DNA of 33,095 nucleotides, from contig CAMVKS010000030.1 of NCBI GenBank assembly GCA_947167995.1, positions 1 to 33,095 of the forward strand, given 5' to 3'. Each line of letters opens with the position of its first letter. The first letter of the stretch is position 1. Source of the DNA: an uncultured Prevotellaceae bacterium (GTDB lineage: Bacteria > Bacteroidota > Bacteroidia > Bacteroidales > Muribaculaceae). The notes beneath the pieces were generated by a model. That model worked only from the letters and a program-made list of their open reading frames with translations. It was not told where the DNA came from and searched no databases. A program made the translations under genes and the position numbers. Of this stretch, positions 3,486-33,095 are shown piece after piece.

Positions 3486-3503
3486 TGTAACCAAAACGTA
3501 ACA
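3486..3503 (+). promoter_or_regulatory. Pho-box-like 7-4-7 direct repeat
   Basis: TGTAACC, a four-base spacer AAAA, then CGTAACA: two 7-bp half-sites with an 11-bp period. That is the architecture bound by tandem OmpR/PhoB-type winged-helix domains (the E. coli Pho box is also 7-4-7). It lies about 33 bp upstream of the -7 element of the gene at 3569, whose product itself ends in such a domain. Binding is inferred. Confidence 0.5.
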
Positions 3504-3535
3504 GACGGTTTATTTAATCTATATACATTTTTCTA

Positions 3536-3543
3536 TACCTTTG
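3536..3543 (+). promoter_or_regulatory. -7 element of the NptA-like gene
   Basis: TACCTTTG matches TAnnTTTG, 25 bases before the ATG at 3569. No TTTG-type -33 element is visible at the usual spacing, which would fit a promoter needing an activator. Confidence 0.6.
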
Positions 3544-3568: not shown

Positions 3569-5527
3569 ATGACTATTGGCTTAATATTCCGGCTTCTCGG
3601 ATCGTTGGCGTTGCTCATTTATGGAATGAAGATAATGAGCGAAGCTCTTCAAAAAATGGCAGGTTCCAGTTTGCGTCACATCCTCGGGCGGATGACATCC
3701 AACCGCTTCAGTGGAATGCTGACAGGCACTTTCGTGACTTGTGCAGTGCAGTCATCTTCGGCCACAACGGTGATGACGGTCTCGTTTGTCTCGGCTGGAC
3801 TATTGACATTGGCACAGGCAATATCTGTCATAATGGGCGCCAACATCGGCACGACCCTCACGGCATGGATTATGTCATTGGGCTACAATGTAGACTTGAC
3901 TTGTGTGGTCTTTCCTGCATTCCTCGTCGGTATGGTTCTCATTTATAAGAAACGACACCGATATGTGGGAGATTTCCTTTTTGGAATTGCATTTCTTTTC
4001 TGGTCTTTGGTGATGTTAAGCAGTGTGGGCAAGGACTTAGATCTTGAGCATAATGCCGAAGTTGTGGCATTCTTTGCCTCATTCGACACCAACAGTTATC
4101 TCACTATCCTCGCTTTTCTTGGAATTGGCACCATTATCACCTGTATTGTTCAGTCGTCGGCAGCAGTTATGGCCATTACCATCCTGCTCTGCTCCACTGG
4201 AGTGGTTCCCATTTACATGGGAATTGCATTAGTTATGGGCGAGAATATTGGCACCACCGCCACTGCCAATCTCGCAGCACTCAAAGCAGGTGTGAGGGCA
4301 CGACAGGCAGCATTTGCCCATCTGCTTTTCAATGTGTTTGGTGTGATTTGGGTGCTATGCGTGTTTTACCCATTTGTTGATATGGTATGCAAGATGGCAG
4401 GCTATAACCCTTCTCTTCCGGGTCAAAATGAAAGTCTCCCCATCGTATTAGCTCTATTCCACACATGTTTCAATGTGATAAATACCGCGATTCTCATCAG
4501 TTTCATTCCACAGATGGAGCAAGTTGTGAAGTGGGTCATCAAGGATAAGCCAAAGGTCAAAACAGTCAAACGTCTTCAGTATATTGACAACGGGCTGATG
4601 GCAACCCCAGAGATTTCAATACTTCAGGCTCAGAAAGAGATTGTGCTCTTTGCTGAACGCCTGCAGCGCATGTTTGGCATGGTGTGCGTACTACTCGACG
4701 AGAAAGACAAGAAAGAATTTGAGCGTCAGTACGAACGCATTGCCAAGTATGAAGACATTGCCGACAACATGGAATTTGAAATCGCTTCTTACCTGAAAGA
4801 AGTAAGCAACAAGCACCTATCTGACGAATCAAAAAGTAAAATTCGTGGCATGCTTCGCCAAATCAGCGAATTAGAGTCTATAGGTGATGCTTGTTATACA
4901 CTGGCCCGCGCCATCCAGCACAAGCACAATGGACGTGAGGACTTCACCCAGCAACAATATACCAATCTTCATGAGATGCTGCGCTTGGTAAACGAGGCAT
5001 TGACACAGATGATGGTCGTCATCAGTGGGCGACGCGAGGATTTAACCATTGACATATCGCAAGAGATAGAGCATGACATCAATGTGCTTAGAGACAAACT
5101 CAGGGCAGAAAGCTTAAACGACATCAACGAACATAAGTATTCTTACGCCCTTGGTTCTTACTATGATGACATCATAACAAGATGCGAGGAACTTGGTGAC
5201 TACGTGATGAACGTCATTGAGGCTCGATTAGGAAAGCGCTTCCTCACATTCCGTGGCTTGCGGGTGAATCTTGACCGCAAAACTGTCACCATCGACGGCA
5301 CTTCAACAAACCTCACTCGAACCGAATTTAACCTACTATGCGAACTCCTGTCTAATAGTGGTCAAGTGCTATCACGACAACAACTCATGAATAGCATTTG
5401 GGATGGTGTAATTGTCACCGAGCGCACAGTGGATGTCAATATAACTCGACTGCGAAAGAAGCTTGGCCCTTATGCCCAAAACATCGTCAGCCGTCAAGGA
5501 TTTGGCTATGTTTTTGAAAAGAAGTGA
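3569..5527 (+). CDS. Na+/phosphate cotransporter fused to OmpR/PhoB-type DNA-binding domain
   Basis: A 652-residue three-part protein. Residues 1 to about 330 are the inner-membrane Na/Pi cotransporter (NptA/PNaS, SLC34-like) domain with its two inverted repeats: QSSSATT with MGANIGTT in the first, QSSAAV with MGENIGTT in the second. Residues about 345-550 are a charged helical region resembling PhoU, as in ordinary NptA homologues of about 560 residues. Residues 557-652 form a winged-helix transcriptional regulator C-terminal domain: the recognition-helix region RTVDVNITRLRKKL is followed by the wing IVSRQGFGYVF. The frame is open throughout and no start-like ATG with a leader precedes the winged helix, so it reads as a genuine fusion. 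If the order holds, a membrane-tethered, cytoplasmic DNA-binding domain is coupled to phosphate transport, comparable in layout to CadC/ToxR-type regulators. Sensing and target DNA are inferred. Confidence 0.9.
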   Translation: MTIGLIFRLLGSLALLIYGMKIMSEALQKMAGSSLRHILGRMTSNRFSGMLTGTFVTCAVQSSSATTVMTVSFVSAGLLTLAQAISVIMGANIGTTLTAWIMSLGYNVDLTCVVFPAFLVGMVLIYKKRHRYVGDFLFGIAFLFWSLVMLSSVGKDLDLEHNAEVVAFFASFDTNSYLTILAFLGIGTIITCIVQSSAAVMAITILLCSTGVVPIYMGIALVMGENIGTTATANLAALKAGVRARQAAFAHLLFNVFGVIWVLCVFYPFVDMVCKMAGYNPSLPGQNESLPIVLALFHTCFNVINTAILISFIPQMEQVVKWVIKDKPKVKTVKRLQYIDNGLMATPEISILQAQKEIVLFAERLQRMFGMVCVLLDEKDKKEFERQYERIAKYEDIADNMEFEIASYLKEVSNKHLSDESKSKIRGMLRQISELESIGDACYTLARAIQHKHNGREDFTQQQYTNLHEMLRLVNEALTQMMVVISGRREDLTIDISQEIEHDINVLRDKLRAESLNDINEHKYSYALGSYYDDIITRCEELGDYVMNVIEARLGKRFLTFRGLRVNLDRKTVTIDGTSTNLTRTEFNLLCELLSNSGQVLSRQQLMNSIWDGVIVTERTVDVNITRLRKKLGPYAQNIVSRQGFGYVFEKK

Positions 5528-16338: not shown

Positions 16339-18249
16339 TTAGAACTCGAGCACTAACGTCTGTCGTGGAGTGAGCTTGATGTCGCTCACGAGGCTGACGT
16401 GGTTGCTGGTGGGGATGTCGCGTGCTACCAGTGCGTTGCCTATTATCTCGGCATATCGCTTTACTGGCATTGTAGCGTTCTCGTCGGTTCCGTTGACGAT
16501 GGTCATCACGGTTTTGCCGTTGTATCGACGTGCCACTACATAAACACCGTTATAAGGCAAGAACTGAGTCTGCTTTCCCTTGGTTATCAGATCGTTGCCT
16601 GGTCCCTTGCGCCAGTGAAGCAGGGCACGGAGCCAGTTGAACATATCGTTCTCCTCCTGAGTGCGTCCCTGAGCCGTAAAGGCATTGTGGGCATCGCCTG
16701 GGAAGCCGCCAGGGAAGTCCTTGCGCACGTTGCCGTCGGTGACCTGCTTAGTGCCGTTCATCAGCACCTCGGTGCCGTAGTAAAGCTGCGGAATGCGGTT
16801 GATGGTGAGCAGCAGAGCGAGTGCCTGCTTGAGAGTGAGGTCGTCCTTGCCGTCCTTGAGGAAGCGGTCGGTGTCGTGGTTCTCGATGAAGGCCATCACG
16901 CTGCTTGGGTTGGGATAGAGATAGTCGAAAACCAAGCTGTTATAGACGCGGTTAAAGCCACGCCACTGACCATCGGTACGCTCGATGCGTGCTGAATCCA
17001 TGCATGCATAGAACGAGAAGTCCATCACGGTCTTGAGGTAGCTGTTCTCGCGTGCAATCTTGCTGTCGCGCTGCCAAGCGGCTGTGTAAGGAGGCTGCTC
17101 AAACCAGGTCTCCCCCACTACGTTGAAGTTGGGATATTCCTTGTCGATAGTCTTCATCCAACGCGCCATGGGTCCTGCAAAGGCATAGGGATAGGTGTCC
17201 ATTCGAATGCCGTCGATGCCCACTGTTTCAATCCACCAGATGCTGTTCTGGATGAGGTAGTTCATCACGTGTGGGTTGTTCTGGTTGAGGTCGGGCATGG
17301 TAGAGACGAACCATCCTTCAACAGTCTCTTTCTTGTCAACCTCGCTGGCATAAGGGTCGAGCACTGGAGCAAGCTTGTAGCTCGTCTGCATGAAGCTGGT
17401 GCCTCGCGAATCGCTTGTCCCCTTCGATTCCTGCAGCCACTCATGAGAGTTGAACCAGTCATTGCTGGGCATGTCGGCAACCCAGGGGTGCTCAAAGCCA
17501 CAGTGGTTGAAAATCATGTCCATGACCACCTTGAGGCCCTTGCTGTGAGCTTCGTCAACGAGACGACGGTAGTCGTCGTTGGTGCCGAAACGTGGGTCAA
17601 CGCGGTAGTAATTGGTAGTGGCATAGCCGTGATAGGTATCATTCCAAGGGCTCTCGGGCGAGTCGTTCTCAAGTACCGGAGTAAACCAAAGCGCAGTCAC
17701 GCCCAGGTCGGTGAGATAGTCGAGGTGCTGACGAATTCCCTCCAAGTCGCCGCCATGACGGTAGCTGGGCTTGTTGCGGTCGCACACCTGGCTGCGCATG
17801 CCTGCCACACGGTCATTGGCCGGGTTGCCGTTGGCAAAACGGTCGGGCATGAGCATGTAGAGCACGTCGGCGTTGGTAAATCCCATGCGCTGGTCCCCGC
17901 TCATCTCACGGGCTTTGAGCTCATATTTCACCTCCATGGCGAGTTTCCCGACCTTGAAGTTGAGTGTCATGATACCGGGCTGTGCGCCAGTGGTGTTGAG
18001 ATAAACGAGCAGGTAGTTTGGACTCTCAAGTCGCACAAGGGAGTCGATTTTCACTCCTGCATAGCTGGTAGTGACCTCGGCATCGCGCACGTTCTTGCCA
18101 TAGACCATGAGTTGGAGCGATGGATCTTTCATACCCACGAACCAGTTGGTAGGCTCGATTCGGTCAACCTTAAAATCGGGCGTCATGGGTACAGCCCATG
18201 CGCCGAGGGTTGTGATAGTTGCTATTGCTATTAAAAGTATCTTTTTCAT
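16339..18249 (-). CDS. GH13 neopullulanase/cyclomaltodextrinase (SusA-like)
   Basis: A 636-residue exported enzyme. The signal peptide is residues 1-19 (ending GAWA). A cyclomaltodextrinase N-terminal beta-sandwich (about 24-115) precedes the GH13 barrel (about 125-540) and a C-terminal beta domain. The four GH13 regions are visible: MIFNHCG, GIRMDTY with nucleophile D351, VVGETW with acid/base E380, and FIENHDTD with D459. YHGYATTNYYRVDPRFG is typical of this subfamily. SusA of Bacteroides thetaiotaomicron is a periplasmic neopullulanase of similar size, and hydrolysis of alpha-1,4 bonds in maltodextrins, cyclodextrins or pullulan is expected. It is the last gene of the operon, 57 bp after the pullulanase gene. 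Confidence 0.9.
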   Translation of the reverse strand: MKKILLIAIATITTLGAWAVPMTPDFKVDRIEPTNWFVGMKDPSLQLMVYGKNVRDAEVTTSYAGVKIDSLVRLESPNYLLVYLNTTGAQPGIMTLNFKVGKLAMEVKYELKAREMSGDQRMGFTNADVLYMLMPDRFANGNPANDRVAGMRSQVCDRNKPSYRHGGDLEGIRQHLDYLTDLGVTALWFTPVLENDSPESPWNDTYHGYATTNYYRVDPRFGTNDDYRRLVDEAHSKGLKVVMDMIFNHCGFEHPWVADMPSNDWFNSHEWLQESKGTSDSRGTSFMQTSYKLAPVLDPYASEVDKKETVEGWFVSTMPDLNQNNPHVMNYLIQNSIWWIETVGIDGIRMDTYPYAFAGPMARWMKTIDKEYPNFNVVGETWFEQPPYTAAWQRDSKIARENSYLKTVMDFSFYACMDSARIERTDGQWRGFNRVYNSLVFDYLYPNPSSVMAFIENHDTDRFLKDGKDDLTLKQALALLLTINRIPQLYYGTEVLMNGTKQVTDGNVRKDFPGGFPGDAHNAFTAQGRTQEENDMFNWLRALLHWRKGPGNDLITKGKQTQFLPYNGVYVVARRYNGKTVMTIVNGTDENATMPVKRYAEIIGNALVARDIPTSNHVSLVSDIKLTPRQTLVLEF

Positions 18250-18306
18250 ATATCAAGAGTAAACGAATTAAAAACTAATAACTGTGAACCATTAATAATG
18301 AACTGC

Positions 18307-20250
18307 TTAATCGTGCATGATGATAGCCGAGCGTGCAGGGACTATAATCTCGTCGGTAGTGATAGTGTAAAGTCCTTGCTCATTTATCACATCGCCGTCG
18401 CCCACGATGGTGTAGGTCGACTTGGGCAGTTTCACCGTGCGTCGCTCATTGTTACCGTTCAGGATTACAATGATATCATTCCATGAGTCGCCAAGCACTT
18501 TGAGGTCTTTGTAACGATAAACCACCAGGCAGTCGCCGCCCGGCAAGAATTCAAGATGCTGAGCGAGGATGTTGCTTTGTGGCATTCCACCCATCTTGAA
18601 AGCGACATGATTCTTTCTCAAGGCAATGAGGTTCTTGTAGTACTCAAAGACTTGTGGATAGCGGTTCAGGTTGTTCCAGTCGAGGTGGTTGATGCTGTCG
18701 GGGCTCTCATAGCTGTTGTGTACACCCTTCTTGTCGCGCAACATCTCCTCTCCGCTGAGCATAAAGGGAATGCCTTGTGAAGTGAAGACCGCTGTCTGCG
18801 CCATGAGGTCGAGCTTGATGAGGTCTTTCGTGGTGAGGTTAGGAATGCTTGCCCTGAGTCGGTCAACGAGGCACATATCGTCGTGGCAGCTCACGTAGGC
18901 AATCATTTGATTGGGATTGTTGGCAAACGGTTCCTTGCTGTAATTCACCTTGCTGTAATCGATCTGCGGATGCAACGAAGCTCCTGCGATACCAAATTTG
19001 ATGCTTTCCTCATAGCCAGGCACACCACCCAAGAATGCTGCTTTGTCATCACCGTCCCATGGTCCACGAAGCGCATCTCTGAGGTCGTCGCTGAAAGCGG
19101 CAATGCCCGGCATCTGCTTCATGTTGGCTTTCATGCCGAGTCTCTCGTTGGGTATAGCGCATCCGCCTGCACTCCATCCCTCGCCATATATCAAGCTCTG
19201 TGGAAATTGCTCATGCACCATGTCGGCAATAGCATTCATGGTCTCGATGTCGTGCACTCCCATGAGGTCGAAGCGGAATCCATCGATACCATATTCGTCC
19301 ATCCAATACTTCACACTTGCGAGCATGTAGGCACGCATTATCTCCTGATCGCTTGCTGTCTCGTTGCCACATCCACTGCCATTGCTCCAAGAGCCATCGG
19401 GGTTCTTGCGGTAGAAGGCATCGGGGCAGGTGCGCTGGAAATTGCCGTCGTCGATGCTGTAGGTGTGATTATAAACAACGTCGAGCACCACCTGAATGCC
19501 GGCATTGTGCAAAGCCTGCACCATCATTTTAAACTCACGGATTCGTGTAGCAGGGTCGTAGGGATTGGTTGAGTATCCACCCTCGGGAACGTTGTAGTTG
19601 AGCGGGTCATAACCCCAGTTGTAACGATTCTGCTCCAGGTGCTCCTCGTCGATAGACGCATAGTCGTAGGAAGGCAAGATGTGAATGGTGTTCACACCCA
19701 AAGTCTTGAGATATTCAATGGCTTTGGGCTCGGTGAGAGCGAGGAACTTGCCCTTGTATTGCAATCCGCTTGAAGGGTCGATAGAGAAATCACGATGATG
19801 CATCTCATAGATGATGTGGTCGCCCAACGCTATCAAGGGAGAACGTCGCCCTATGTCCCATCCTTCGGGATTGGTCTCGGCCATATCGATGATGGCGCCA
19901 CGACGGCCGTTCACACCCACCGCCTTGGCAAAGATGCCAGGGTTCTCGCCCGCAAAGACACCGTTGTATTTCACATCGAAGGTATAGAAGCGTCCCTTGA
20001 GATCGCCCTTGACAGTGGCGTGCCACTCGCCGGCGATTTTCTTGTCACGTTTCATGTTGACCTTCTTTATCATATTGCCATCCTTGCCTGCATCGTAGAT
20101 GCGCAGCACCACTTCTTGAGCGTCATCGTTGGTGTTGAGCAAGAATTGGGTGGCCTTGGGGGTATAGGTCATCTCGTTGAAGTTATAGTCGCGAGCACCT
20201 GCTGTAGCCATAGTCAATGCGATGATTGCTGTTAATAGTATTTTTTTCAT
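18307..20250 (-). CDS. pulA: Type I pullulanase (GH13)
   Basis: A 647-residue exported debranching enzyme. The signal peptide is residues 1-19 (ending TAGA). A CBM48-like N-terminal domain (about 30-115) precedes the catalytic barrel. The type I pullulanase signature YNWGYDP is at 210-216. GH13 regions are DVVYNHTY, GFRFDLMG with nucleophile D328, IYGEGWS with acid/base E357, and VSCHDDMCL with D457. It cleaves alpha-1,6 branches of pullulan and amylopectin-derived limit dextrins. It has no transmembrane anchor or lipobox, so it is likely periplasmic. The gene is 22 bp downstream of the GH97 gene. Confidence 0.92.
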   Translation of the reverse strand: MKKILLTAIIALTMATAGARDYNFNEMTYTPKATQFLLNTNDDAQEVVLRIYDAGKDGNMIKKVNMKRDKKIAGEWHATVKGDLKGRFYTFDVKYNGVFAGENPGIFAKAVGVNGRRGAIIDMAETNPEGWDIGRRSPLIALGDHIIYEMHHRDFSIDPSSGLQYKGKFLALTEPKAIEYLKTLGVNTIHILPSYDYASIDEEHLEQNRYNWGYDPLNYNVPEGGYSTNPYDPATRIREFKMMVQALHNAGIQVVLDVVYNHTYSIDDGNFQRTCPDAFYRKNPDGSWSNGSGCGNETASDQEIMRAYMLASVKYWMDEYGIDGFRFDLMGVHDIETMNAIADMVHEQFPQSLIYGEGWSAGGCAIPNERLGMKANMKQMPGIAAFSDDLRDALRGPWDGDDKAAFLGGVPGYEESIKFGIAGASLHPQIDYSKVNYSKEPFANNPNQMIAYVSCHDDMCLVDRLRASIPNLTTKDLIKLDLMAQTAVFTSQGIPFMLSGEEMLRDKKGVHNSYESPDSINHLDWNNLNRYPQVFEYYKNLIALRKNHVAFKMGGMPQSNILAQHLEFLPGGDCLVVYRYKDLKVLGDSWNDIIVILNGNNERRTVKLPKSTYTIVGDGDVINEQGLYTITTDEIIVPARSAIIMHD

Positions 20251-20272
20251 ATCAAAAATCTTTTATCTTCCT

Positions 20273-22495
<2,223 letters not shown>

Positions 22496-22502
22496 TTAAA
22501 TT

Positions 22503-22547
22503 AGAGGTTCTAGATTTTCTAAAATTCCTAGAATGTCTAGAACCTCT
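22503..22547 (-). promoter_or_regulatory. Intercistronic hairpin between malQ and the GH97 gene
   Basis: AGAGGTTCTAGA (22503-22514) and TCTAGAACCTCT (22536-22547) form a perfect 12-bp stem; TTCTA/TAGAA inside can extend it. It sits between the malQ stop and the next start. On the minus strand an A-rich, not T-rich, sequence follows, so it suits mRNA processing or differential stability better than termination. Confidence 0.6.
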
Positions 22548-22558
22548 TGGTTAAAATT

Positions 22559-25240
22559 TTAACGGTTGCTTTGAGCGATGAGCTGCTTTACCTTAGCGTT
22601 GAACTCGCTATTGTCCATCAGGTCCTCGATAGTCATGTGCATGCGATAACGCCAGTAGTGGCGCGGGTTGGCAGGCACATTGATGCGCTCGGCATCGGCA
22701 TCGGGCAAGCGAAGTTCCTCGTCAATCGACAACCAGTCTTGCAGACTTATCAAGCAGAGCATCGACGGGCTGTAGAGGTGCTGAGCCACTATGTCACGAG
22801 CAAGCCATCCTGGCAGTGGATGAGGAGCAGGTCCCGATTTCCACATCACTTCGTTGTAGTACTCCTGCGAGAGCTGCCAATCCTCGTCCCACCATTGGCG
22901 CAGAGTGCTCATGTCGTGTGTGCTGATAGTGCTCACCGAGCGGTAAGGATTGCTCTGGAGGTTGCCAAACTTGAGAGTGTTGTCCTTGGGCATAGACTGG
23001 ATTTCGAGGCTCAGAATCTTGAGCTCGTTCATCACCCAGGGCACGCAGTCGGGCACCATGCCAAGGTCCTCGGCACACACGAGCATGCGTGTTGCCTGAA
23101 CCAGACGTGGCAACTTCTTCATCGCCTCGTGATACCAGAAGCGGTTGTTGCGACGATAGTAGTAGTCGTTATAGAGGCGGTTGAAGGCGTCCTTGTCGCT
23201 ATCCCACAAAGCCTCATAGATGAGTGCCAGCTGTGCAGTGATGCGTGGATGGAACTTGTTGGGGTCCTTGCGGTCGCGCACAAAGAGCACATTGTTGATG
23301 AGCGAGAACAATCCATCGCGCACCCACTTGTCGTCGTCGGTGGTCTTGCCGGCAAATGCTGCTTCAACCTTGCGCTGAGTGTCATACTCGGGACGCATCA
23401 CCCAAATGTCGTCGTGAGAGTGCTGCAAGAAGGTGTCGCGCACGCGCTGAGCGTGAGGACCAAAGACGCGGTCGATAATCCAGTCGGAGATGAATGGCTT
23501 GGTGAAGAAATCTTCCTGCCAGTGCAGTCCGTAGCCCTCAACTTCCTCGCGAGTCATGCCAAGGGCTGGTGAGAACTGGCCCAGAAGACCTTGAACCGAG
23601 CTGATGGGAATCTCCCAGATGCGGAAGAAACCGAGTACGTGGTCTATGCGATAGGCGTCGAAATACTCGCTCATGTTCTGGAAGCGACGCACCCACCACT
23701 GGCAGCCGTCTTTGAGCATCTCGTCCCAGTTGTAGGTGGGGAATCCCCAGTTCTGACCGTCGGCGCTGAAGGCATCGGGTGGAGCACCCGCCTGGCCGTT
23801 CATGTTGAAGTAGTTGGGCTCTACCCATGCATCGCAACCGTTGGGGCTGATGCCAATGGGGATGTCGCCCTTCAATATCACGTGCTTGCTGCGTGCATAC
23901 TCATGAGCAGCTTTCATCTGCTTGCTGAGCTCAAACTGGACAAACATCCAGAAAGCAGCCTCCTTACCCATTGTGGTGGTAGCGTCCTCCACGCTCTTCT
24001 TGAGCGAGGGAGTGAACTGGCGATGGTTGGGCCACTCTTTGAAATTGGCAGTGCCGAACTTGTCGCGCAGCACACAGAATGCAGCGTAAGGCACAAGCCA
24101 ACGCTTATTGGCTGCATAGAATTTCTTGTAATCATTACCCTTGACAATCTTCTCGCCATCCTGAGCCCACACGTCGCGCAGATAGCTCAACTTGAGCTTA
24201 TTGACACGCTCATAGTCAACTTGTGCCAGCTTGTTGAGCTCCTTGCCCTGAGCCAGGTAGTTCTTCATCTTCTCCACATCTTTTAGAGCTGGGAGCTGAC
24301 GCAGGTCAACATACATGGGGTGCAGGGCGTAGATCGAGATGCTGTTGTAGGGGTAGCTGTCGGTCCACGTTTTGGTGATGGTGGTGTCGTTGATGGGCAG
24401 CACCTGCAGGGCGCGCTGGCCGGTGCGCTCCATCCAGTCGATCATCTTCTTGAGGTCGCCAAAGTCGCCCACACCACAGCTCTGCTGGCTGCGCAGCGAG
24501 AAGATGGGAATTACAGTACCCGCGATGCGCCATGCAGGCAGTGGGAATGTGGCCTGAGGAAGCTCATAGCACACCACCTCGCCTGTGGCCAGATCGGGAA
24601 GCTCTATGCTTCGATTGTCGCACTCTTCCCAGCAGATGCCACCCTTGTCGTCGATAGCAACAAATTTAAAGACGATGGTGTTGCCAGCTAATTTTGAGGT
24701 ATTGAGCTTGATGGCCCACTGGTTATGGGTCACCTCGGTCATCTCCAAGCCTCGCTTGGCACTCCAGTCGCCCAGGGCAGGCCCCTCACCGCACAGCACC
24801 AAGTGCTGGTTGCTTGCCAGCTGTGGAGCACGCACATTGATAATGGCAGTCTTGCCATATCCTGTGCTTGCCAGCTTACGCTCTGGGCGCTCGGCAAGGC
24901 AATCGGTGAATGCACTGCTGTAGAGGTAGCTGTCCTCGGGCAGGTCGAGCCAGTGGTCATAGATAGTGTAGCGCTTGGCTTTGGCGCAGGAGAAGATGAG
25001 GCGGTGAGGCACCGTCTGCCACTCATGTCGCACTTCCTCATCGCCACGGTTCACTGTGTAGTAGTAATCGATGTGACGGCCGCTCACTCCCGGATAGGAC
25101 ACCTCGCAGGTCCATCGGCGACCGTCGGTTGTGGTCATCTTGTGAGCACTGTCAAGGAAGTCGAGCTTGCTGTCATCAATGTGCAGCACTATCTCCTCGC
25201 CAAAGATAGTCTGGTAATCAAGATTGAAAATAAGTTTCAT
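22559..25240 (-). CDS. malQ: 4-alpha-glucanotransferase with tandem CBM20 (GH77)
   Basis: An 893-residue cytoplasmic enzyme with no signal peptide. Two N-terminal starch-binding CBM20 domains (about 1-110 and 130-225; the second contains HLVLCGEGPALGDWS) precede a GH77 barrel (about 245-890). Catalytic residues are nucleophile D533 in AYRIDHVLGF, acid/base E724 in CAEDLGMVP and D776 in STHDMSTLRQW. This long CBM20-bearing form (DPE2-type) is usual in Bacteroidetes and transfers maltosyl or maltodextrin units between glucans. It leads the operon, so it is the gene closest to the LacI-type operator at 25339-25350. It would disproportionate imported maltodextrins inside the cell after the exported enzymes have cut them. 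Confidence 0.95.
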   Translation of the reverse strand: MKLIFNLDYQTIFGEEIVLHIDDSKLDFLDSAHKMTTTDGRRWTCEVSYPGVSGRHIDYYYTVNRGDEEVRHEWQTVPHRLIFSCAKAKRYTIYDHWLDLPEDSYLYSSAFTDCLAERPERKLASTGYGKTAIINVRAPQLASNQHLVLCGEGPALGDWSAKRGLEMTEVTHNQWAIKLNTSKLAGNTIVFKFVAIDDKGGICWEECDNRSIELPDLATGEVVCYELPQATFPLPAWRIAGTVIPIFSLRSQQSCGVGDFGDLKKMIDWMERTGQRALQVLPINDTTITKTWTDSYPYNSISIYALHPMYVDLRQLPALKDVEKMKNYLAQGKELNKLAQVDYERVNKLKLSYLRDVWAQDGEKIVKGNDYKKFYAANKRWLVPYAAFCVLRDKFGTANFKEWPNHRQFTPSLKKSVEDATTTMGKEAAFWMFVQFELSKQMKAAHEYARSKHVILKGDIPIGISPNGCDAWVEPNYFNMNGQAGAPPDAFSADGQNWGFPTYNWDEMLKDGCQWWVRRFQNMSEYFDAYRIDHVLGFFRIWEIPISSVQGLLGQFSPALGMTREEVEGYGLHWQEDFFTKPFISDWIIDRVFGPHAQRVRDTFLQHSHDDIWVMRPEYDTQRKVEAAFAGKTTDDDKWVRDGLFSLINNVLFVRDRKDPNKFHPRITAQLALIYEALWDSDKDAFNRLYNDYYYRRNNRFWYHEAMKKLPRLVQATRMLVCAEDLGMVPDCVPWVMNELKILSLEIQSMPKDNTLKFGNLQSNPYRSVSTISTHDMSTLRQWWDEDWQLSQEYYNEVMWKSGPAPHPLPGWLARDIVAQHLYSPSMLCLISLQDWLSIDEELRLPDADAERINVPANPRHYWRYRMHMTIEDLMDNSEFNAKVKQLIAQSNR

Positions 25241-25475: not shown

Positions 25476-28400
25476 TTAATTGCCCAGCAGGATGTTGTAG
25501 ATGAAGGTGATGTCGCCTGTGGTGATGTAGCCGTCGCCGTCCACATCGCTGGTGGTGATGAATGTCTCGTCGCCGTTGAGCAGGTAGTTGTAGATGGCAG
25601 TGATATCTACTGTGGTCACCTCGCCGTCGCCGTCCACGTCGCCAGGAACAACCACCACTGCATTCGGGTCGGTGAAATAGCCTGGGTTGTCGGGGCCGCC
25701 GTCGATGTGGGCATATTCCTTGTCGGTGTGGCTGGGGTCATAGGTTGTGCCCATGCCGCCCACCAGCGAGGTGCAGCCGTAGAACATGCTATTGGAGCTC
25801 AAGGCAATCTGTGTGGTCCATCCTCCACCGACATAGATAGTTCTCAGTTTTGAACAGCCGCAGAACATCCTACTCATATCTGTGCCATTGCGAGTGTCCC
25901 AACCCGAGAGGTCGAGCCTTACGAGACTTGAGCAGCCTTCGAACATGGAGTACATTGTGTAAACCATAGAGGTGTTGAAGTTCGAAATGTCAACATTACG
26001 CAGGCTCGTGCAAGACTTGAACATATTGTTCAAGATATTCACATCGTCAGTATTCCAGTTCGAGAAGTCGAGCGAAGTCAAGCTTGAGCAGTTTTCGAAC
26101 ATATTGCTCATGTTGGTGACACTGCTGGTATTGACATTATTCAAGTCCATGCTTGTGCAATTGCTGAAGCCTTTGAACAACTCCGAGCAGTCGCCCATGA
26201 AGCTCACATCGCTGGTGGCTGTGACGCTCGTGACTGCAGTGGCAATCACCTCGCTGCCCCACTTGTCGCCATTGTTGAATGTGCCCCAGTTGAGCGAAAG
26301 GGCGCCCGTGGTGCTGTCGTAGGTGTAGCGCGGCGTCTTGGCGCTTAAGTAGCCGGGATTGGCTAAACCGCCGTCGATGTGGGCATATTCCTTATTTGTG
26401 TGGTACATGTCATAGGTCGTTCCCATGCCGCCTACCAGCGATGTGCAGCCATCGAACATAAACCCTGACCTAGTAACTTTCTCGGTGCTCCAATCCGCGC
26501 CAACATAGATGGTGGTCAAATATGAGCAGCCTCTGAACATGGCGTACATGCTGGTGACATTGCCAGTGTCCCAGCCCGAGAGGTCGAGTGAGGTAAGACC
26601 AGTACAGTTTTCGAACATACCGCTCATGTTGGTGACATTGGTGGTGTTCCAGCCCGAGATATCGAATGACGTCATGCTTGAGCAATAGTAGAACATCTCA
26701 CTCATGTTGGTGACATTGCCCATGTTCCAACCTGAGAGGTTGAGCGAAGTCAAGGAATCGCAAAATGAGAACATGCTTTCCATGCTGGTGACACTGGCGG
26801 TATTCCAGCCAGAGATATCGAATGACTTCATGCTTGAACAATAGAAGAACATGCCAGTCATGTTGGTAACAGCGCTGGTGTTCCAGCTTGAGATGTTGAG
26901 CGTGGTTAATGCTTCGCATTGCATAAACATTTCGCATGCACTCGTCATCGCACTGGTGTTTACATGATTCAAGTCCATGCTTTCACAAGATTCAAAGTTA
27001 TAGAACAGCTGCGAGCAGTCGCCCGTGAAGCTCACCTCACTGGTGGCGGTGACGCTCGTGACGGCCGAGGCTGGCACATCGTCGCCCCACTTGTTGTCCT
27101 TGTTGAACTCGCCCCTAAGAAGCGCCAGTGTACCGGTCGCGCTGTCGTAGGTGTATCGCAGCTCCTGAAGCTCAACGGTCACGGTGGCATCGTCTAACGG
27201 CATTTGGAAGGTGTTGCCCTCGATGTCTGTGCCGTTCACCGAATACTTCGGGACATAACCCTCAGGCACATTGCCTGTGTAGGTGAGGGTGACAGGGGTG
27301 CCAGCGGCGTAGTAGATGGAGTCGCCAATTGTGCAGACAGGGGTTGCCGAGGTGGTCACATCTTCGGGCAGGATGAGCTTGAACACACCCGTGAAATAGC
27401 CCGGTTGCTCTGCGCCGTGGTCGATGCGGGCATATTCCTTATCGGTGTGGTTTTCGTCGTAGGTGGTGCCCATGCCGCCCACCAGTTTTGTGCAACCGCT
27501 AAACATGCCTGATGAATAATCAACATTCCCGGTATACCAGCTTGTAGTCGTGTAGATGGTGGTGAGTTGATTGCAATTTTGGAACATTTTGTTCATAGTC
27601 CACCTGCCAACCCAGCCCGAGAGGTTGACCGATTTGAGCGAAGAGCATCCTTCAAACATGCCAAACATATTATAAACCATGTGTGTGTCCCATCCCGAGA
27701 GGTCGAGCGAGGTGAGTTGATTGCAATATGCGAACATTAAGTCCATTTGGTTTACACGAGTTATGTTCCATCCCGAGAGGTCGAGCGAGGTGAGGCTTAA
27801 GCAATTAGTGAACATATGGTCCATAGATTCGACATTGCCAGTATCCCATCCCGTGATGTCGAGCGAGGTGAGATGGGAGCAATCCATGAACATAAAGCTC
27901 ATGGAGATAACATTGGCGGTGTTCCAACTTGAGATGTCGAGCGAGGTGAGGATTTCGCAACCCATGAACATATCACTCATATCAGTGACATTGGCAGTGT
28001 TCCAGCTCGAGATATTGAGCGAGGTTAGTCTTACGCAGTTTTCGAACATACTCCTCATATTGGTGACATTGCTGGTGTTAACACTATTCAAATCTATGCT
28101 TGTGCAGTAACTGAAATCCTTGAACAGCTCCGAGCAGTCACCAGTGAAGCTCACCTGGCTGGTGGCAGTCACGCTCGTGACAGCCTCGGCTGGCACATCG
28201 CCGCCCCACTTGTTGTCCTTGTTGAACTCGCCTTTGATAAGTGCCAGCTCGCCAGTTGTACTGTTGAAGGTGTAGCGCACATCCCATTTGGCATAGAGCG
28301 TCATGTCGCCTGGCACCACAGTGTTGAAGTCCCATTGATTGATGCAGGCCGCCTCGGTGTACCAGCCCTGGAAGATGTAGCCATTGGCCGTTGGAGCGGT

Positions 28401-30080
28401 GGGCACAGTGGCCTTGTCCTGGTTGCTCCATAGGGTCTGTGCCGCGGGGTCTGTGCCGTGCCCGTTAGTGTTGAATGTCACGGTGCAGCGCCAGTGCTCT
28501 GTAAAGTCATCTGACACGTAATTATTCCAGCCTGTGCCCTTTGTCACATTGCCCCATTGTTGTTGTGTACCATTGAAGAAAAGGTCAGTCAGGAGTTCGC
28601 AGTTCCTGAATGCATATTCCCCGATACTTGTCAAACACGATGGCAGATATACTTTTTCAAGTTTAGTACAACTGTTGAAAGCGAAGTTTCCTATATTGGT
28701 CACTCCTGATTTCACATCTAAAGTGACAAGATTGGTGTAACTCTGGAATTCATATTGAGCAATGGAATAGACATGTTCAATAGTGAGATTAATCACTTTA
28801 TTCTTGTTCCAATTATGGGTGGTGATTACCTGATTGGTGGGATGATTGCTCCAACTGTTGTCGGCACAGTCTATTTTCAGATTTCCAGCTGCATCAAGAG
28901 TCCAACACAGAGTGTTATTGCTGGAAGAGTTTCCACCGCACCAACCGCAATTCCATGCGCTGGAACCACTACCGCCATTAACAACCAAGTTTGGCGAATA
29001 CATATACTTACTATGTCCCCAGACATTCATTGAGCCTGGATAAGTGATTTGACAATTGCTGCTTATGTTGGAAAAAGCCCCATCTCCTATAGAGACATTT
29101 GATTGAGAAAAAATGACCGATGACAGGCTGCATCCATTGAACGCATTGGCCCCAACACTGGTGACCGATGTGAGCGTGATATTCTCGATGGCAGTGCTCA
29201 TGAAGGCCGAAGCCGGGATGCTTGTCATGGAAGCAGGAGTCTTGTCGTTGGTGCTGCCGGTTTTCACATGTTTGAAGTTGGTGCACCCCTGCATTGACGG
29301 CATTTGGCTGACTATGGTGTTGTCATAGAAAGCCAGAGTTACAAGACTGGAGAACCCGCTGAAGACATTGCCCGAGAAGTTCGTCACCTGCACTCCGTCG
29401 ATGTTGAGAGGTACGGTGAGAGAGGTCCAGCTGCTTTTAGAGCCTTGATACCCCGTGATGTTGCCTGAGCTCGAGTTGATGACCCACCCCTTTGCGGCGG
29501 TGGCGGCGTGCATGTAGATGTAGTCGCTGCTCGAGCCGCAACCCGTGTTCAGGTCATAGCCCGTGGAGCCGCCATTCACGCCAACAGCGCCACTCTGGGT
29601 GGCATCGAAGGAAATGGAATTCACAGCCGTGGAACTGTAATTCTCAGCGTTGTCCTTAGTGTAGTAGAGGTGGATGTAGGCACTGCTTGCGCCGCAATGG
29701 CTGTTAAGGTCTCCCTTGGTGCCCTTGAAATAGTCGCTGCCATCGCAGGACACAAGGGTATAAGTGTGCCCACCGTGTGTGACATTATCGGGGGCGGTTC
29801 CACTTGCATTGCTGATGTAGAAGCCGGTGATAAACGCGCCGGCATCCCGGCCCGAGTTACTCGCCGCCTTGTAGAGCAGGTAGATGTAGTCGCTGCTTGA
29901 GCCAGCACCGGCGTTCAGGTCCTGGTCGATGACCGTCCAGCCCTGAGACGTGTAGGTATTCTTCAAGCTGTTAACTTCACTTTTCGAGCCGCCAATCACC
30001 ATCACATCGGTGATGAAATCCGCGGCCCAGACGGTGGTAGTGGCAAGAAGAGCCACAAGCAATAGTAAAATCTTTTTCAT
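25476..30080 (-). CDS. Giant BspA-like surface protein with MABP-like beta-prism and dockerin-like end
   Basis: A 1534-residue exported protein. The signal peptide is 1-19. Residues 22-192 hold three repeats, each ending DLN-x-G/H-x-G-x-SS-x-YIY/H (DLN at 54, 124, 176), resembling the MABP beta-prism. BspA-type leucine-rich repeats occupy about 221-360 and 430-520, and an InlB-type Listeria-Bacteroides repeat about 533-600 (FQGWYTE, ending LYAKW). Three DUF285 cassettes span about 607-900, 977-1245 and 1252-1470, each with an N-cap (GEFNKDNKWG, then FTGDCS), 24-25-residue repeats of type NTSNVTNMSSMF and LTSLDLSGW, and a C-cap (LVGGMGTTYD, KEYA, PGYFT). Residues about 1478-1534 are a dockerin-like pair of calcium loops (DVDGDGEVTTVD, DVDGDGYITTGD). 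No type IX sorting domain or lipobox is visible. Binding of host or microbial partners is inferred from the BspA family. Confidence 0.9.
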   Translation of the reverse strand: MKKILLLLVALLATTTVWAADFITDVMVIGGSKSEVNSLKNTYTSQGWTVIDQDLNAGAGSSSDYIYLLYKAASNSGRDAGAFITGFYISNASGTAPDNVTHGGHTYTLVSCDGSDYFKGTKGDLNSHCGASSAYIHLYYTKDNAENYSSTAVNSISFDATQSGAVGVNGGSTGYDLNTGCGSSSDYIYMHAATAAKGWVINSSSGNITGYQGSKSSWTSLTVPLNIDGVQVTNFSGNVFSGFSSLVTLAFYDNTIVSQMPSMQGCTNFKHVKTGSTNDKTPASMTSIPASAFMSTAIENITLTSVTSVGANAFNGCSLSSVIFSQSNVSIGDGAFSNISSNCQITYPGSMNVWGHSKYMYSPNLVVNGGSGSSAWNCGWCGGNSSSNNTLCWTLDAAGNLKIDCADNSWSNHPTNQVITTHNWNKNKVINLTIEHVYSIAQYEFQSYTNLVTLDVKSGVTNIGNFAFNSCTKLEKVYLPSCLTSIGEYAFRNCELLTDLFFNGTQQQWGNVTKGTGWNNYVSDDFTEHWRCTVTFNTNGHGTDPAAQTLWSNQDKATVPTAPTANGYIFQGWYTEAACINQWDFNTVVPGDMTLYAKWDVRYTFNSTTGELALIKGEFNKDNKWGGDVPAEAVTSVTATSQVSFTGDCSELFKDFSYCTSIDLNSVNTSNVTNMRSMFENCVRLTSLNISSWNTANVTDMSDMFMGCEILTSLDISSWNTANVISMSFMFMDCSHLTSLDITGWDTGNVESMDHMFTNCLSLTSLDLSGWNITRVNQMDLMFAYCNQLTSLDLSGWDTHMVYNMFGMFEGCSSLKSVNLSGWVGRWTMNKMFQNCNQLTTIYTTTSWYTGNVDYSSGMFSGCTKLVGGMGTTYDENHTDKEYARIDHGAEQPGYFTGVFKLILPEDVTTSATPVCTIGDSIYYAAGTPVTLTYTGNVPEGYVPKYSVNGTDIEGNTFQMPLDDATVTVELQELRYTYDSATGTLALLRGEFNKDNKWGDDVPASAVTSVTATSEVSFTGDCSQLFYNFESCESMDLNHVNTSAMTSACEMFMQCEALTTLNISSWNTSAVTNMTGMFFYCSSMKSFDISGWNTASVTSMESMFSFCDSLTSLNLSGWNMGNVTNMSEMFYYCSSMTSFDISGWNTTNVTNMSGMFENCTGLTSLDLSGWDTGNVTSMYAMFRGCSYLTTIYVGADWSTEKVTRSGFMFDGCTSLVGGMGTTYDMYHTNKEYAHIDGGLANPGYLSAKTPRYTYDSTTGALSLNWGTFNNGDKWGSEVIATAVTSVTATSDVSFMGDCSELFKGFSNCTSMDLNNVNTSSVTNMSNMFENCSSLTSLDFSNWNTDDVNILNNMFKSCTSLRNVDISNFNTSMVYTMYSMFEGCSSLVRLDLSGWDTRNGTDMSRMFCGCSKLRTIYVGGGWTTQIALSSNSMFYGCTSLVGGMGTTYDPSHTDKEYAHIDGGPDNPGYFTDPNAVVVVPGDVDGDGEVTTVDITAIYNYLLNGDETFITTSDVDGDGYITTGDITFIYNILLGN

Positions 30081-30342: not shown

Positions 30343-30378
30343 CTATGAACTATAAACTATAAACTGTGAACTATGAAC
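30343..30378. repeat. AACTATGA/AACTATAA short tandem repeat
   Basis: Four to five head-to-tail units of 8-9 bases lie directly beyond the stop codon of the second BspA-like gene. Comparable repeats (ATGCATTGA type) lie beyond the first BspA-like gene at 25446-25480. Confidence 0.55.
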
Positions 30379-33095
30379 TATTTCTTGTTTCCCAGCAGGA
30401 TGTTGTAGATGAAGGTGATGTCGCCAGTGGTGATGTAGCCGTCGCCGTCCACGTCGCTGGTGGTGATGAATGTCTCGTCGCCGTTGAGCAGGTAGTTGTA
30501 GATGGCAGTGATATCTACTGTGGTCACCTCGCCGTCGCCATCCACGTCACCTGGCACAACCACCAATGCGGGATTAAATGTAACAGTGACGGTGGCATCG
30601 TTTAACGGCATCTCGAAGGTGTTGCCATCAATTGCGGTACCGTTCACGGCAAAGACGACCACTTTGCCCTCGGGCACATTGCCGGTGTAGGTGAGGGTGA
30701 CAGCGGTGCCAGCGGTGTAGTAGATAGAGTCGCCAATTGTGCAGACAGGGGTTGCCGAAGTGGTCACATCTTCGGGCAGGATGAGCTTAAACACACCCGT
30801 GAAATAGCCCGGTTGCTCTGCGCCGTGGTCGATGCGGGCATATTCCTTATCGGTGTGGTTTTCGTCGTAGGTGGTGCCCATGCCGCCCACCAGTTTTGTG
30901 CAACCGCTAAACATGCCTGATGAATAATCAACATTCCCGGTATACCAGCTTGTAGTCGTGTAGATGGTGGTGAGTTGATTGCAATCTTGGAACATATTGG
31001 AAATACTCCACCTGCCAATGACCCAGCCCGAGAGGTTGACCGATTTGAGCGAAGAGCATTCTGAAAACATGCCAGACATATTAGAAACCATGTGTATGTT
31101 CCACCCCGAGAGGTCGAGCGAGGTGAGATTTGTGCAAAATTGGAACATCATGCCCATGCTGCATCCAGGAGCTATATTCCAGCCCGATAGGTTGAGCGAA
31201 GTGAGGCTTGAGCAATTAGTGAACATATTGTTCATAATAATGGCTTTGCCAGTGTCCCATCCCGAGATGTCGAGCGAGGTGAGGCTCGTGCAAGTTTGAA
31301 ACATTATGCCCATGTTGTTAACGTTGCTGGTGTTCCATCCCGAGATGTTGAGCGAGGTGAGGCTATAGCAACCACTGAACATAGCGCTCATGTTGGTGGC
31401 ATTGCTGGTGTTTACACTGTCCAAATCCATGCTAGTGCAATTGGTGAAGTTACTGAATAGCTGTGAGCAGTCGCCGGTGAAGCTCACCTGGCTGGTGGCG
31501 GTGACGCTCGTGACGGCCTCGGCGGGCACATCGTTGCCCCACTTGTTGTCCTTGTTGAACTCGCCCCACAGGAGTGCCAGCTCACCGGTCTCGCTGTTGA
31601 AGGTGTATTGTGCCAAACCCCATTTGGCATAGAGCGTCATGTCGCCAGTGACCACTGTGTTGAAGTCCCACTGATTGATGCATTCCGCCTCGGTGTACCA
31701 CCCCTGGAAGATGTAGCCATTGGCAGTTGGAGCCGTTGGAGTAGTGGCCTTGTCATAGTTGCTCCAGAGGGTCTGTGCTGCTGGAGCGGTGCCGTGGCCG
31801 TTGGCGTTAAAAGTCACCGTGGAGCGCCAATGCTCGGTGGCGGCGCTGGGATTCCAGTTGCCTCCCTTGTCAACGGCTTCCCATTGTGACAGTGTGCCGT
31901 TGAACCAAATATCGGTCAAAGAACTACAACCCAAGAACGCGTTACTGTCTATAGAGTGCAAAGTGGGGTTGATGTACACATTCTTTAGATTGGCATGGTT
32001 AGTGAATTCCATAACTCCTAAAGAGTAAACATGCTCTAAAGTGAGCGATTTCACAAGATTCTTAGTCCAGCCTTTGTAAACTATGACCTGTTCGGAGGGA
32101 TGATTAGACCAATTGTTGTCGGCACAATCTATTTTCAGCTGCCCGGCAGCATCAAGCGTCCAGTATAGACGGTTATAGCTACTTGAGGACCCTCCGCCAC
32201 ACCAGCCGCAGGACCATGTGTTGCTGCCGCTTCCGCCATTGACAACCAAGCTTGGCGAATACATGTACTTACTGGGGCTCCAGGCATTAATAGAGCCTGG
32301 ATAAGTGACTTGGCACATGGCACCGCCTTCTCTTACTATGTAAGAAAAAGCGCCATCACCGATAGTGACATTTGATTGATTAAACACTACACTGTTTAGC
32401 ACTGTGCTTCCAGCGAAAGCATTGCTCCCGACGTTGGTGACCGACGTGAGCGTGACATTCCTAAGGTCTGTGCCCACAAACGCTGAGGCAGGGATGCTTG
32501 TCATTGAAGCCGGAGTTATGTCATATTGATTACCAGTTCTTATACTTCTGAATTTAGAGCATCCTTGCATCGACGCCATTTGGGTGACTCGGGTGTTCTC
32601 ATAAAAAAACATTGTCTCAAGGTTGGTGAACCCGCTGAAAACCGAGCCCGAGAAGCCGATTACCGGTGCGCCGTCTATGTAATTAGGTATATAGACTGTT
32701 GTCTTGTTATTCTTAGTGCCCTGATACCCCGTGATAGTGCATTGGGTATGGTTTGAGTTCATGCTGATTACCCATCCCTTATTGCCCGTGCCGGCATGCA
32801 TGTAGATGTAGTCGCTGCTGGAGCCGCAGCCGGTGTTGAGGTCATAGCCCGTGGTGCCGCCATTCACACCTACAGCCCCACTCTGAGTATCGTTGAAGGA
32901 GATAGAATTCACAGCCGTGGAACTGTAATTCTCAGCGTTGTCCTTAGTGTAGTAGAGGTGGATGTAGGCACTGCTTGCGCCGCAATGGCTGTTAAGGTCT
33001 CCCTTGGTGCCCTTGAAATAGTCGCTGCCATCATAGTCAACAAGAGTGTAGGTGTGCCCGTCGTGCGTGACATTGTCGGGGGCGGTGCCACTGGC
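30378..33095 (-). CDS. Second BspA-like surface protein, 5' end outside the window
   Basis: A paralogue of the 25476-30080 protein; the frame is open to the window edge, so the N-terminus is missing (at least 905 residues remain). Translation from the edge begins ASGTAPDNVTHDGHTYTLVD, equal to residues 92-111 of the paralogue apart from a few changes, so the signal peptide and first prism repeat lie beyond the edge. The GTG at 32912 is not a start: it is an internal valine. Order of domains: rest of the MABP-like prism, BspA leucine-rich repeats, InlB-type repeat (about 31830-31620), one DUF285 cassette with caps (about 31610-30800), a beta linker (about 30780-30560) and the dockerin-like pair (30545-30381). 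It has one cassette where the paralogue has three. Long blocks of DNA are identical to the neighbour. Confidence 0.88.
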   Translation of the reverse strand, partial: ASGTAPDNVTHDGHTYTLVDYDGSDYFKGTKGDLNSHCGASSAYIHLYYTKDNAENYSSTAVNSISFNDTQSGAVGVNGGTTGYDLNTGCGSSSDYIYMHAGTGNKGWVISMNSNHTQCTITGYQGTKNNKTTVYIPNYIDGAPVIGFSGSVFSGFTNLETMFFYENTRVTQMASMQGCSKFRSIRTGNQYDITPASMTSIPASAFVGTDLRNVTLTSVTNVGSNAFAGSTVLNSVVFNQSNVTIGDGAFSYIVREGGAMCQVTYPGSINAWSPSKYMYSPSLVVNGGSGSNTWSCGWCGGGSSSSYNRLYWTLDAAGQLKIDCADNNWSNHPSEQVIVYKGWTKNLVKSLTLEHVYSLGVMEFTNHANLKNVYINPTLHSIDSNAFLGCSSLTDIWFNGTLSQWEAVDKGGNWNPSAATEHWRSTVTFNANGHGTAPAAQTLWSNYDKATTPTAPTANGYIFQGWYTEAECINQWDFNTVVTGDMTLYAKWGLAQYTFNSETGELALLWGEFNKDNKWGNDVPAEAVTSVTATSQVSFTGDCSQLFSNFTNCTSMDLDSVNTSNATNMSAMFSGCYSLTSLNISGWNTSNVNNMGIMFQTCTSLTSLDISGWDTGKAIIMNNMFTNCSSLTSLNLSGWNIAPGCSMGMMFQFCTNLTSLDLSGWNIHMVSNMSGMFSECSSLKSVNLSGWVIGRWSISNMFQDCNQLTTIYTTTSWYTGNVDYSSGMFSGCTKLVGGMGTTYDENHTDKEYARIDHGAEQPGYFTGVFKLILPEDVTTSATPVCTIGDSIYYTAGTAVTLTYTGNVPEGKVVVFAVNGTAIDGNTFEMPLNDATVTVTFNPALVVVPGDVDGDGEVTTVDITAIYNYLLNGDETFITTSDVDGDGYITTGDITFIYNILLGNKK

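Follow-up and report, generated by a model that had tools for sequence, protein, structure and literature searches.

We describe a gene in which a Na/Pi cotransporter, a PhoU-like helical part and a PhoB-type winged helix (WH) are read as one chain, and we consider it fairly probable that its product is a one-component, autoregulated phosphate transceptor that arose when a local two-component operon for phosphate collapsed. The gene lies in the window, i.e., the whole stretch of 33,095 nucleotides analyzed here, and is composed as follows:

3569..5527, + strand: fusion gene, Na/Pi cotransporter + PhoU + PhoB-type WH, 652 aa (ORF listing, translation, Pfam, NCBIfam)
3569..4558, + strand: transporter half, residues 1-330, with the QSSSATT/QSSAAV repeats (Pfam Na_Pi_cotrans; match to solved SLC34A2 chains)
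4607..5230, + strand: PhoU-like helical part, residues 347-554 (Pfam PhoU 362-448; helices in the AlphaFold model)
5231..5239, + strand: joint, residues 555-557, from the last PhoU helix to the first WH strand (motif spacing; AlphaFold model)
5237..5524, + strand: PhoB/OmpR-type WH, residues 557-652 (Pfam, NCBIfam, AlphaFold, Foldseek)
5420..5482, + strand: recognition helix alpha-3, residues 618-638 in the model (AlphaFold model; conservation)

The open reading frame is single and uninterrupted over its 652 residues, and both QSSSATT and QSSAAV, the motifs claimed in a preliminary description of this DNA, can be read in its translation. The same description had proposed a Na/Pi cotransporter, PhoU and a WH on a single chain with no receiver, an arrangement that Pfam, NCBIfam and AlphaFold bear out. 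A domain search, which it had put forward as a check, placed Na_Pi_cotrans (two stretches, 188.1 bits), PhoU (residues 362-448, 33.7 bits) and Trans_reg_C (residues 578-649, 71.9 bits) above their gathering scores, with no Pfam match of the protein to the receiver (Response_reg). The transporter half also matches solved SLC34A2 chains (best E 1.7e-17), and the fusion protein scores 225.3 bits against TIGR00704 (cut-off 210.1). Its top two-component match in NCBIfam is the Bacteroidetes PhoB model NF053854, which is reached by the C-terminal part only (residues 556-650; 108.2 and 110.4 bits) and short of the full-length cut-off of 270. Like transmembrane one-component regulators, the protein carries transmembrane (TM) segments and a DNA-binding domain on one chain; the marks of a PhoB response regulator, namely a full-length score and a receiver with a phospho-acceptor Asp, are missing from it. 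As to the OmpR/PhoB WHs that read 11-bp repeats, the fold matches and such a repeat is present at the promoter, binding being putative.

The AlphaFold model (30-sequence alignment, mean pLDDT 80.7, pTM 0.51) runs through the PhoU helices (347-554) and three joint residues into a PhoB fold, in which the strand and helix order from residue 558 onward is that of OmpR/PhoB. Foldseek ranks 1gxp, the effector domain of PhoB bound to pho-box DNA, first among its PDB matches (rmsd 1.4, TM-score by target 0.87). Thus, the structure prediction that had been suggested for the WH yields a PhoB-like fold, whereas a pTM of 0.51 is too low for a reliable reading of domain placement. The positive-inside pattern of loop charges suggests that the C-terminus, on the WH side, is cytosolic. 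Membrane regulators that act after cleavage exist, and with M547 as a possible internal start the WH could be envisaged as a soluble factor, freed by proteolysis or internal initiation. We hold this to be highly improbable, because the M547 position is I in five of 30 aligned proteins (L047, L058, L059, L080, L083) and a joint of three residues in the model offers little space for a cleavage linker.

The fusion recurs in relatives. From a genome-contig scan we kept the best 80 of at least 559 matching loci; 58 of these 80 are fused in one frame, a proportion that, given this choice, is no frequency, and in the other 22 the transporter is without a WH. The fused carriers are mostly rumen bacteria, and five of the fused records (L039, L051, L061, L070, L076) have titles without the words MAG or uncultured. 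The conservation that the preliminary description had proposed to check is thus found among the best-matching loci, and the two outcomes that it had named as fatal to the fusion did not materialize: the WH is neither always separate nor degenerate, being fused in these loci and under purifying selection, and a frameshift joining two genes is excluded by the same open fusion in so many of them. The window's genome is in 121 contigs, which could favor an assembly or frameshift artefact; against the open fusions of the kept loci and the five records labeled neither MAG nor uncultured, the probability of such a joining of two genes is negligible.

In the broader samples, among the matches listed, the WH is covered in two of 149 genomes of the family (G000, G095), in one of 295 of the order (G000; E 1e-100, 98 genomes) and in one of 395 of the phylum (G000; E 1e-90, 44 genomes); fusions to more distant transporters may lie beyond the E thresholds of the latter two. 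None of the 17 other long transporter frames among those listed (at least about 640 residues) has a WH, in a check for which the window protein served as positive control (155 bits). Judged from coordinates alone, no conserved neighbor gene of the fusion is obvious. On the minus strand of the window lie a gene for a response regulator with a PglZ domain (564-2108; Pfam), whose product we take to be PorX-like, a starch-type cluster (16339-25240) with cyclomaltodextrinase, pullulanase-like, GH97 and CBM20-bearing GH77 genes, and two genes for large BspA-type LRR/DUF285 proteins with a dockerin type I domain at the end (25476-30080 and 30378-32912). A contig edge of the same genome (C78, L002) carries the C-terminus of another PhoU-type transporter, which is unfused and 49% identical.

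The preliminary description had compared the fusion with Pst, PhoU and PhoB of E. coli, but a nearer comparison is the unfused Na/Pi-PhoU transporter of near relatives, which is followed by separate, adjacent phoB and phoR genes. Sixteen unfused loci encode a full-length receiver-WH protein downstream on the same strand (gaps of -58 to 466 bases), and in 13 of the 16 a histidine kinase similar to that of L094 follows. The kinase of L105 is cut by the contig end, and at L021, L025 and L027 no kinase match was found within the available 627 to 749 bases. Seven of the 12 operon transporters compared end in E/Q-ARFGK; at this place the fusion has EARLGK, after which the chain runs on into the first WH strand. 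The spacing from the EARLG-type motif to LTxxE is 26 residues in all 59 fused ORFs, i.e., the joint has a fixed length. Since those seven transporters end where the fusion enters the WH, the fusion looks like a collapsed operon, and we consider the local transporter-phoB-phoR operon its likely source. We infer a direction from operon to fusion because the unfused forms spread more widely. The fusion and the complete operon, transporter, PhoB and PhoR with a box of their own, occur together in one genome, G095 (L197, G095:C8).

In the phylogenetic analysis the fused PhoUs form one clade (support 99/99). The fused TM parts do not, with L081, L082 and L090 placed elsewhere, and a single origin of the whole protein is ruled out for the TM half (p-AU 1.4e-6 when the fused TMs are held together). 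In these three loci the transporter half and the PhoU-WH half differ in lineage, which looks like an exchange of the TM part. A first WH tree, which held no other Bacteroidales PhoB, gathered all 56 distinct fused WHs in one clade (99/87). A wider tree, to which 23 PhoBs taken whole were added, grouped the fused rows with the operon PhoBs L006, L009, L097, L101, L102 and with L228 (88/88, short of the star awarded by the tool); the fused rows need two changes there, against one in the first tree. A clade of the fused WHs with all 17 operon or neighboring PhoBs is rejected (p-AU 0.003), and so L021, L025, L027 and L029 belong to another story. It is likely, on a comparison that rests on few columns, that the WH shares its origin with the operon PhoBs of the same genus.

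Upstream of the fusion gene, the window contains three elements:

3486..3502, + strand: Pho-box-like direct repeat TGTAACCAAAACGTAAC with an 11-bp period (motif searches)
3513..3516, + strand: -33-like element, TTTA (consensus TTTG), 19 bases before the -7 element (read from the sequence; group statistics)
3536..3543, + strand: Bacteroidales -7 element TACCTTTG, 50 bases after the box start (sequence; group statistics)

Here the Bacteroidales -7 consensus is presumed to be TANNTTTG. Sixty upstream regions were scored, i.e., 59 loci and the window, L004 and L059 being identical in sequence and L036 and L037 almost identical. The motif YGTARCCNAAWYGTARY is found with no mismatch in 44 of them, with one in eight, with two in four and with at least three in four (L079, L090, L072 and L063, the upstream of the last being short); among 3000 single-base shuffles, none reach one mismatch or fewer and seven reach two. 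All 57 regions with at most three mismatches have a TANNTTTG element at a distance of 49-51 bases, counted from the first base of the box (55 exact, two with one mismatch), so that box and -7 element occur at this distance in 57 of the 60 fused promoters. Exact TTTG at -33 was observed in 24 of the 57, against 4.7 expected. The half-sites of the fusion promoters lie 11 bases apart, matching those reported for Pho boxes (PMC4415409). Because the box was derived from fused promoters, its presence there is partly built in; its near-uniqueness and its spacing are not.

The operons have a comparable arrangement: in 12 of the 13 loci with a kinase, a box with at most three mismatches lies 49-50 bases from the -7 element, and the thirteenth, L108, also has a box. 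At L021, L025 and L027 the box is absent (4-5 mismatches), and the unfused transporters L099, L106 and L110, beside which no PhoB was found, have it with one mismatch each. In four unfused genomes (L172, L179, L180, L181) a second, inverted box lies 26 bases from the first. A common target of paired boxes was considered and rejected, as the three readable divergent ORFs among L097, L098, L101 and L102 differ, L097 and L101 sharing one.

The motif YGTAACCNAAWYGTAAY matches the window's genome exactly at a single place, the fusion's own promoter, and nowhere with one mismatch. A genome-wide count, covering 50 of the 58 fused genomes, found the strict motif exactly once in 40, and in 38 of these it is located at the fusion (tblastn of the transporter placed 28 of 30 fetched loci there, and coordinates 10 of 10 others). 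The exceptions away from the fusion are L158 and L163, and a reversed-pattern control gave three matches. As the motif was taken from these very promoters, matches at the fusion are expected, and the finding is the scarcity of other sites. A Pho regulon in the window's genome is rejected, 16 sites at two mismatches or fewer comparing with 24 for the reversed control; since the control outnumbers the sites, only the single exact site counts in this genome. When the pattern was relaxed, 24 sites turned up in 17 fused genomes, compared with 14 for the control. By their coordinates, 12 of these sites belong to the fusion and one to the operon that accompanies it in G095, which leaves 11, a number expected by chance. 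Judged by these counts, the site comes close to being reserved for a single gene in the fused genomes covered by the search. We regard it as likely that the WH binds this box of its own promoter.

The WH itself appears to be maintained. In 166 pairs, which are non-independent, the WH has a dN/dS of 0.084, compared with 0.050 for the TM part and 0.052 for PhoU; by this measure the WH is under purifying selection. The equivalents of T194, V197 and R201, reported as base contacts of PhoB (PMC3973317), are kept in 55, 56 and 56 of the 56 distinct fused WHs, respectively. R219 of E. coli PhoB, another reported contact, and E191, part of its acidic patch (PMC3973317), are conserved in neither the fused nor the operon proteins. 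The loop after W611, equivalent to the PhoB transactivation loop, is one residue shorter in all 56 fused WHs, although the place of the gap is uncertain, and in none of the 17 operon or neighboring PhoBs. Among the 23 added PhoBs, the shorter loop is present in one of the 15 that could be scored (L225), a PhoB of a fused genome. In E. coli PhoB, the change G185R in this loop is reported to abolish activation (PMC3973317). The shorter loop could alter the contact with RNA polymerase, and activation may be changed or lost. Moreover, receiver-less PhoB is reported to bind DNA constitutively (PMC4415409), and the fused WH may thus escape Pi gating. Together, these two points would be compatible with a dosage counter blind to Pi or with a repressor.

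Stand-alone PhoB was found above the NF053854 cut-off in eight of 50 fused genomes versus 133 of 149 genomes of the family; in the window's genome the best score stays below it (183.9, cut-off 270). A strict anticorrelation of fusion and PhoB is rejected, as those eight fused genomes retain PhoB. A search for PhoR with L094 as query (E at most 1e-40) found it in three of 37 fused genomes and in all eight operon genomes; PhoR of the operon type was not found by it in the window's genome. The set of 37 omitted six of the eight PhoB-positive fused genomes, among them G160, and in five of these six (G169, G170, G178, G189, G195) a PhoR-like gene lies near PhoB. With PhoR next to PhoB in such genomes, the pair tends to stay or go together. 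PhoB and PhoR are both below the thresholds in the five fused records titled neither MAG nor uncultured (G154, G165, G173, G182, G187). The Pst system was searched through PstB, whose best score in the window's genome is 136.6 bits (cut-off 343.2). None of 34 genomes is above this value, although two fused genomes, at 327 and 315 bits, are not far short of it; absence of Pst is therefore claimed for the window's genome only.

Several loci with a stand-alone pair deserve mention. G195 is the genome of L086, whose fusion is 97% identical to the window protein. It has a PhoB-PhoR pair (L234, G195:C11:49500-57500) with an operon-type box about 740 bases upstream; no transporter was found between box and pair, and the fusion is elsewhere in the genome. 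A second PhoB-PhoR pair in a fused genome (L196, G183:C70, about 385-2276) shows a frame change in PhoB between receiver and WH, and a diverged transporter adjoins it on the other strand. In three fused genomes (L237, L238, L239, from G189, G169 and G178, respectively) a more distant PhoB-PhoR pair has a transporter adjacent on the opposite strand. One could envisage from such genomes that the WH has no DNA role, being a structural or protein-contact module while another regulator reads the box: PhoB is retained in eight of 50 fused genomes, the R219 equivalent is missing from the wing, and the genome of L086 has its PhoB-PhoR pair and operon-type box besides the fusion. Nevertheless, this is very unlikely, given that the recognition-helix residues are near-invariant, that dN/dS is low, and that 42 of the 50 fused genomes are without a PhoB above cut-off, yet most of the 50 keep the box.

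In this context, we put forward the following circuit. The transporter half would import Na+/Pi, and the cytosolic PhoU domain would report the transport state or the cytosolic Pi state. The WH, held to the last PhoU helix by the fixed-length joint, would bind two half-sites 11 bp apart in its own promoter, about 7 bp ahead of the -33 element, with two proteins placed head-to-tail just upstream of -33. Through the joint, PhoU would couple promoter binding to the transport state, and binding to the box would activate transcription when Pi is low. That the fusion protein is gated by Pi via PhoU seems reasonably probable, and that the WH acts by activation only slightly better than an even call; activation at low Pi is favored because the box keeps the position that it has in the operon. 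The preliminary description had suggested a one-component, membrane-tethered regulator: the architecture, the promoter box and the maintained WH support this idea, while the Pi-sensing mechanism attached to it keeps its conditional form.

A possible, though doubtful, alternative is that the protein counts its own dosage. The WH would then bind the box at any Pi, the tethered protein would repress or activate its own gene by its amount in the membrane, and PhoU would regulate transport only. Constitutive DNA binding by receiver-free PhoB (PMC4415409), a transactivation loop shorter by one residue in every distinct fused WH, which fits lost activation, and a target that seems to be one promoter all agree with such a counter. 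On the other hand, the box keeps the operon position upstream of -33, an activator-type place, and two observations suggest that PhoU matters to the WH, namely the fixed length of their joint in 59 of 59 fused ORFs and the fact that PhoU and WH stay paired when the TM half differs. To return to the Pi-gated circuit in its boldest form, the transporter conformation, read by PhoU, would set the binding of the attached PhoB domain at its own promoter, a nutrient-homeostasis loop in one polypeptide derived from the operon minus receiver and kinase; we judge the case for it to be evenly balanced.

Two-component systems are often said to derive from one-component regulators. Here the likely reverse step, from two- to one-component, is visible with both states alive, as a three-gene operon and as a one-gene fusion; the two coexist in G095 and have the type of promoter elements and their spacing in common. 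The fusion would offer a minimal system for how PhoU-type domains pass the state of a transporter to a regulator and for how a membrane-tethered factor reaches its DNA site, and since a single gene and a single site appear to make up the circuit, a laboratory strain can be used to reconstruct it. If this is true, a solute carrier would be its own transcription factor.

Several known systems resemble the fusion in part. The Na/Pi-cotransporter II-related proteins with PhoU (TIGR00704) have the same repeats and PhoU tail as its residues 1-556; among the matches listed for such relatives in the family, order and phylum samples, only those of G000 and G095 run on into a WH. The WH is nearest to the operon PhoBs of the same genus (support below the star), and the promoter box and its spacing are common to both; in contrast, the receiver and the interdomain linker are missing in the fusion, and its W611 loop is one residue shorter. 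We take ToxR, CadC and TcpP to be transmembrane transcription regulators. Proteins of this class, of which the single-pass ones are reported as the most prevalent kind, have like the fusion a membrane part and a DNA-binding domain on one chain, with no phosphorelay (PMC10269533); the membrane part of the fusion, however, is a whole solute transporter, and its WH is C-terminal, behind PhoU. Among the open-licence papers listed, no title or opening of an abstract reports a Na/Pi transporter fused to the DNA-binding domain of PhoB, and PF02690 and PF00486 occur together in none of the full texts searched, although the tables of PMC10269533 may hold such proteins. Membrane-tethered one-component regulators and transporter-kinase fusions are thus known already, and the union of a transporter with the PhoB DNA-binding domain is the part for which no report was found. 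An ammonium transporter-kinase fusion of Kuenenia bears the name Ks-Amt5. In Kuenenia, as here, a transporter is joined to a signaling output; in that protein the partner is a histidine kinase (PMC5764959), whereas the Na/Pi transporter described here has the DNA-binding domain itself attached.
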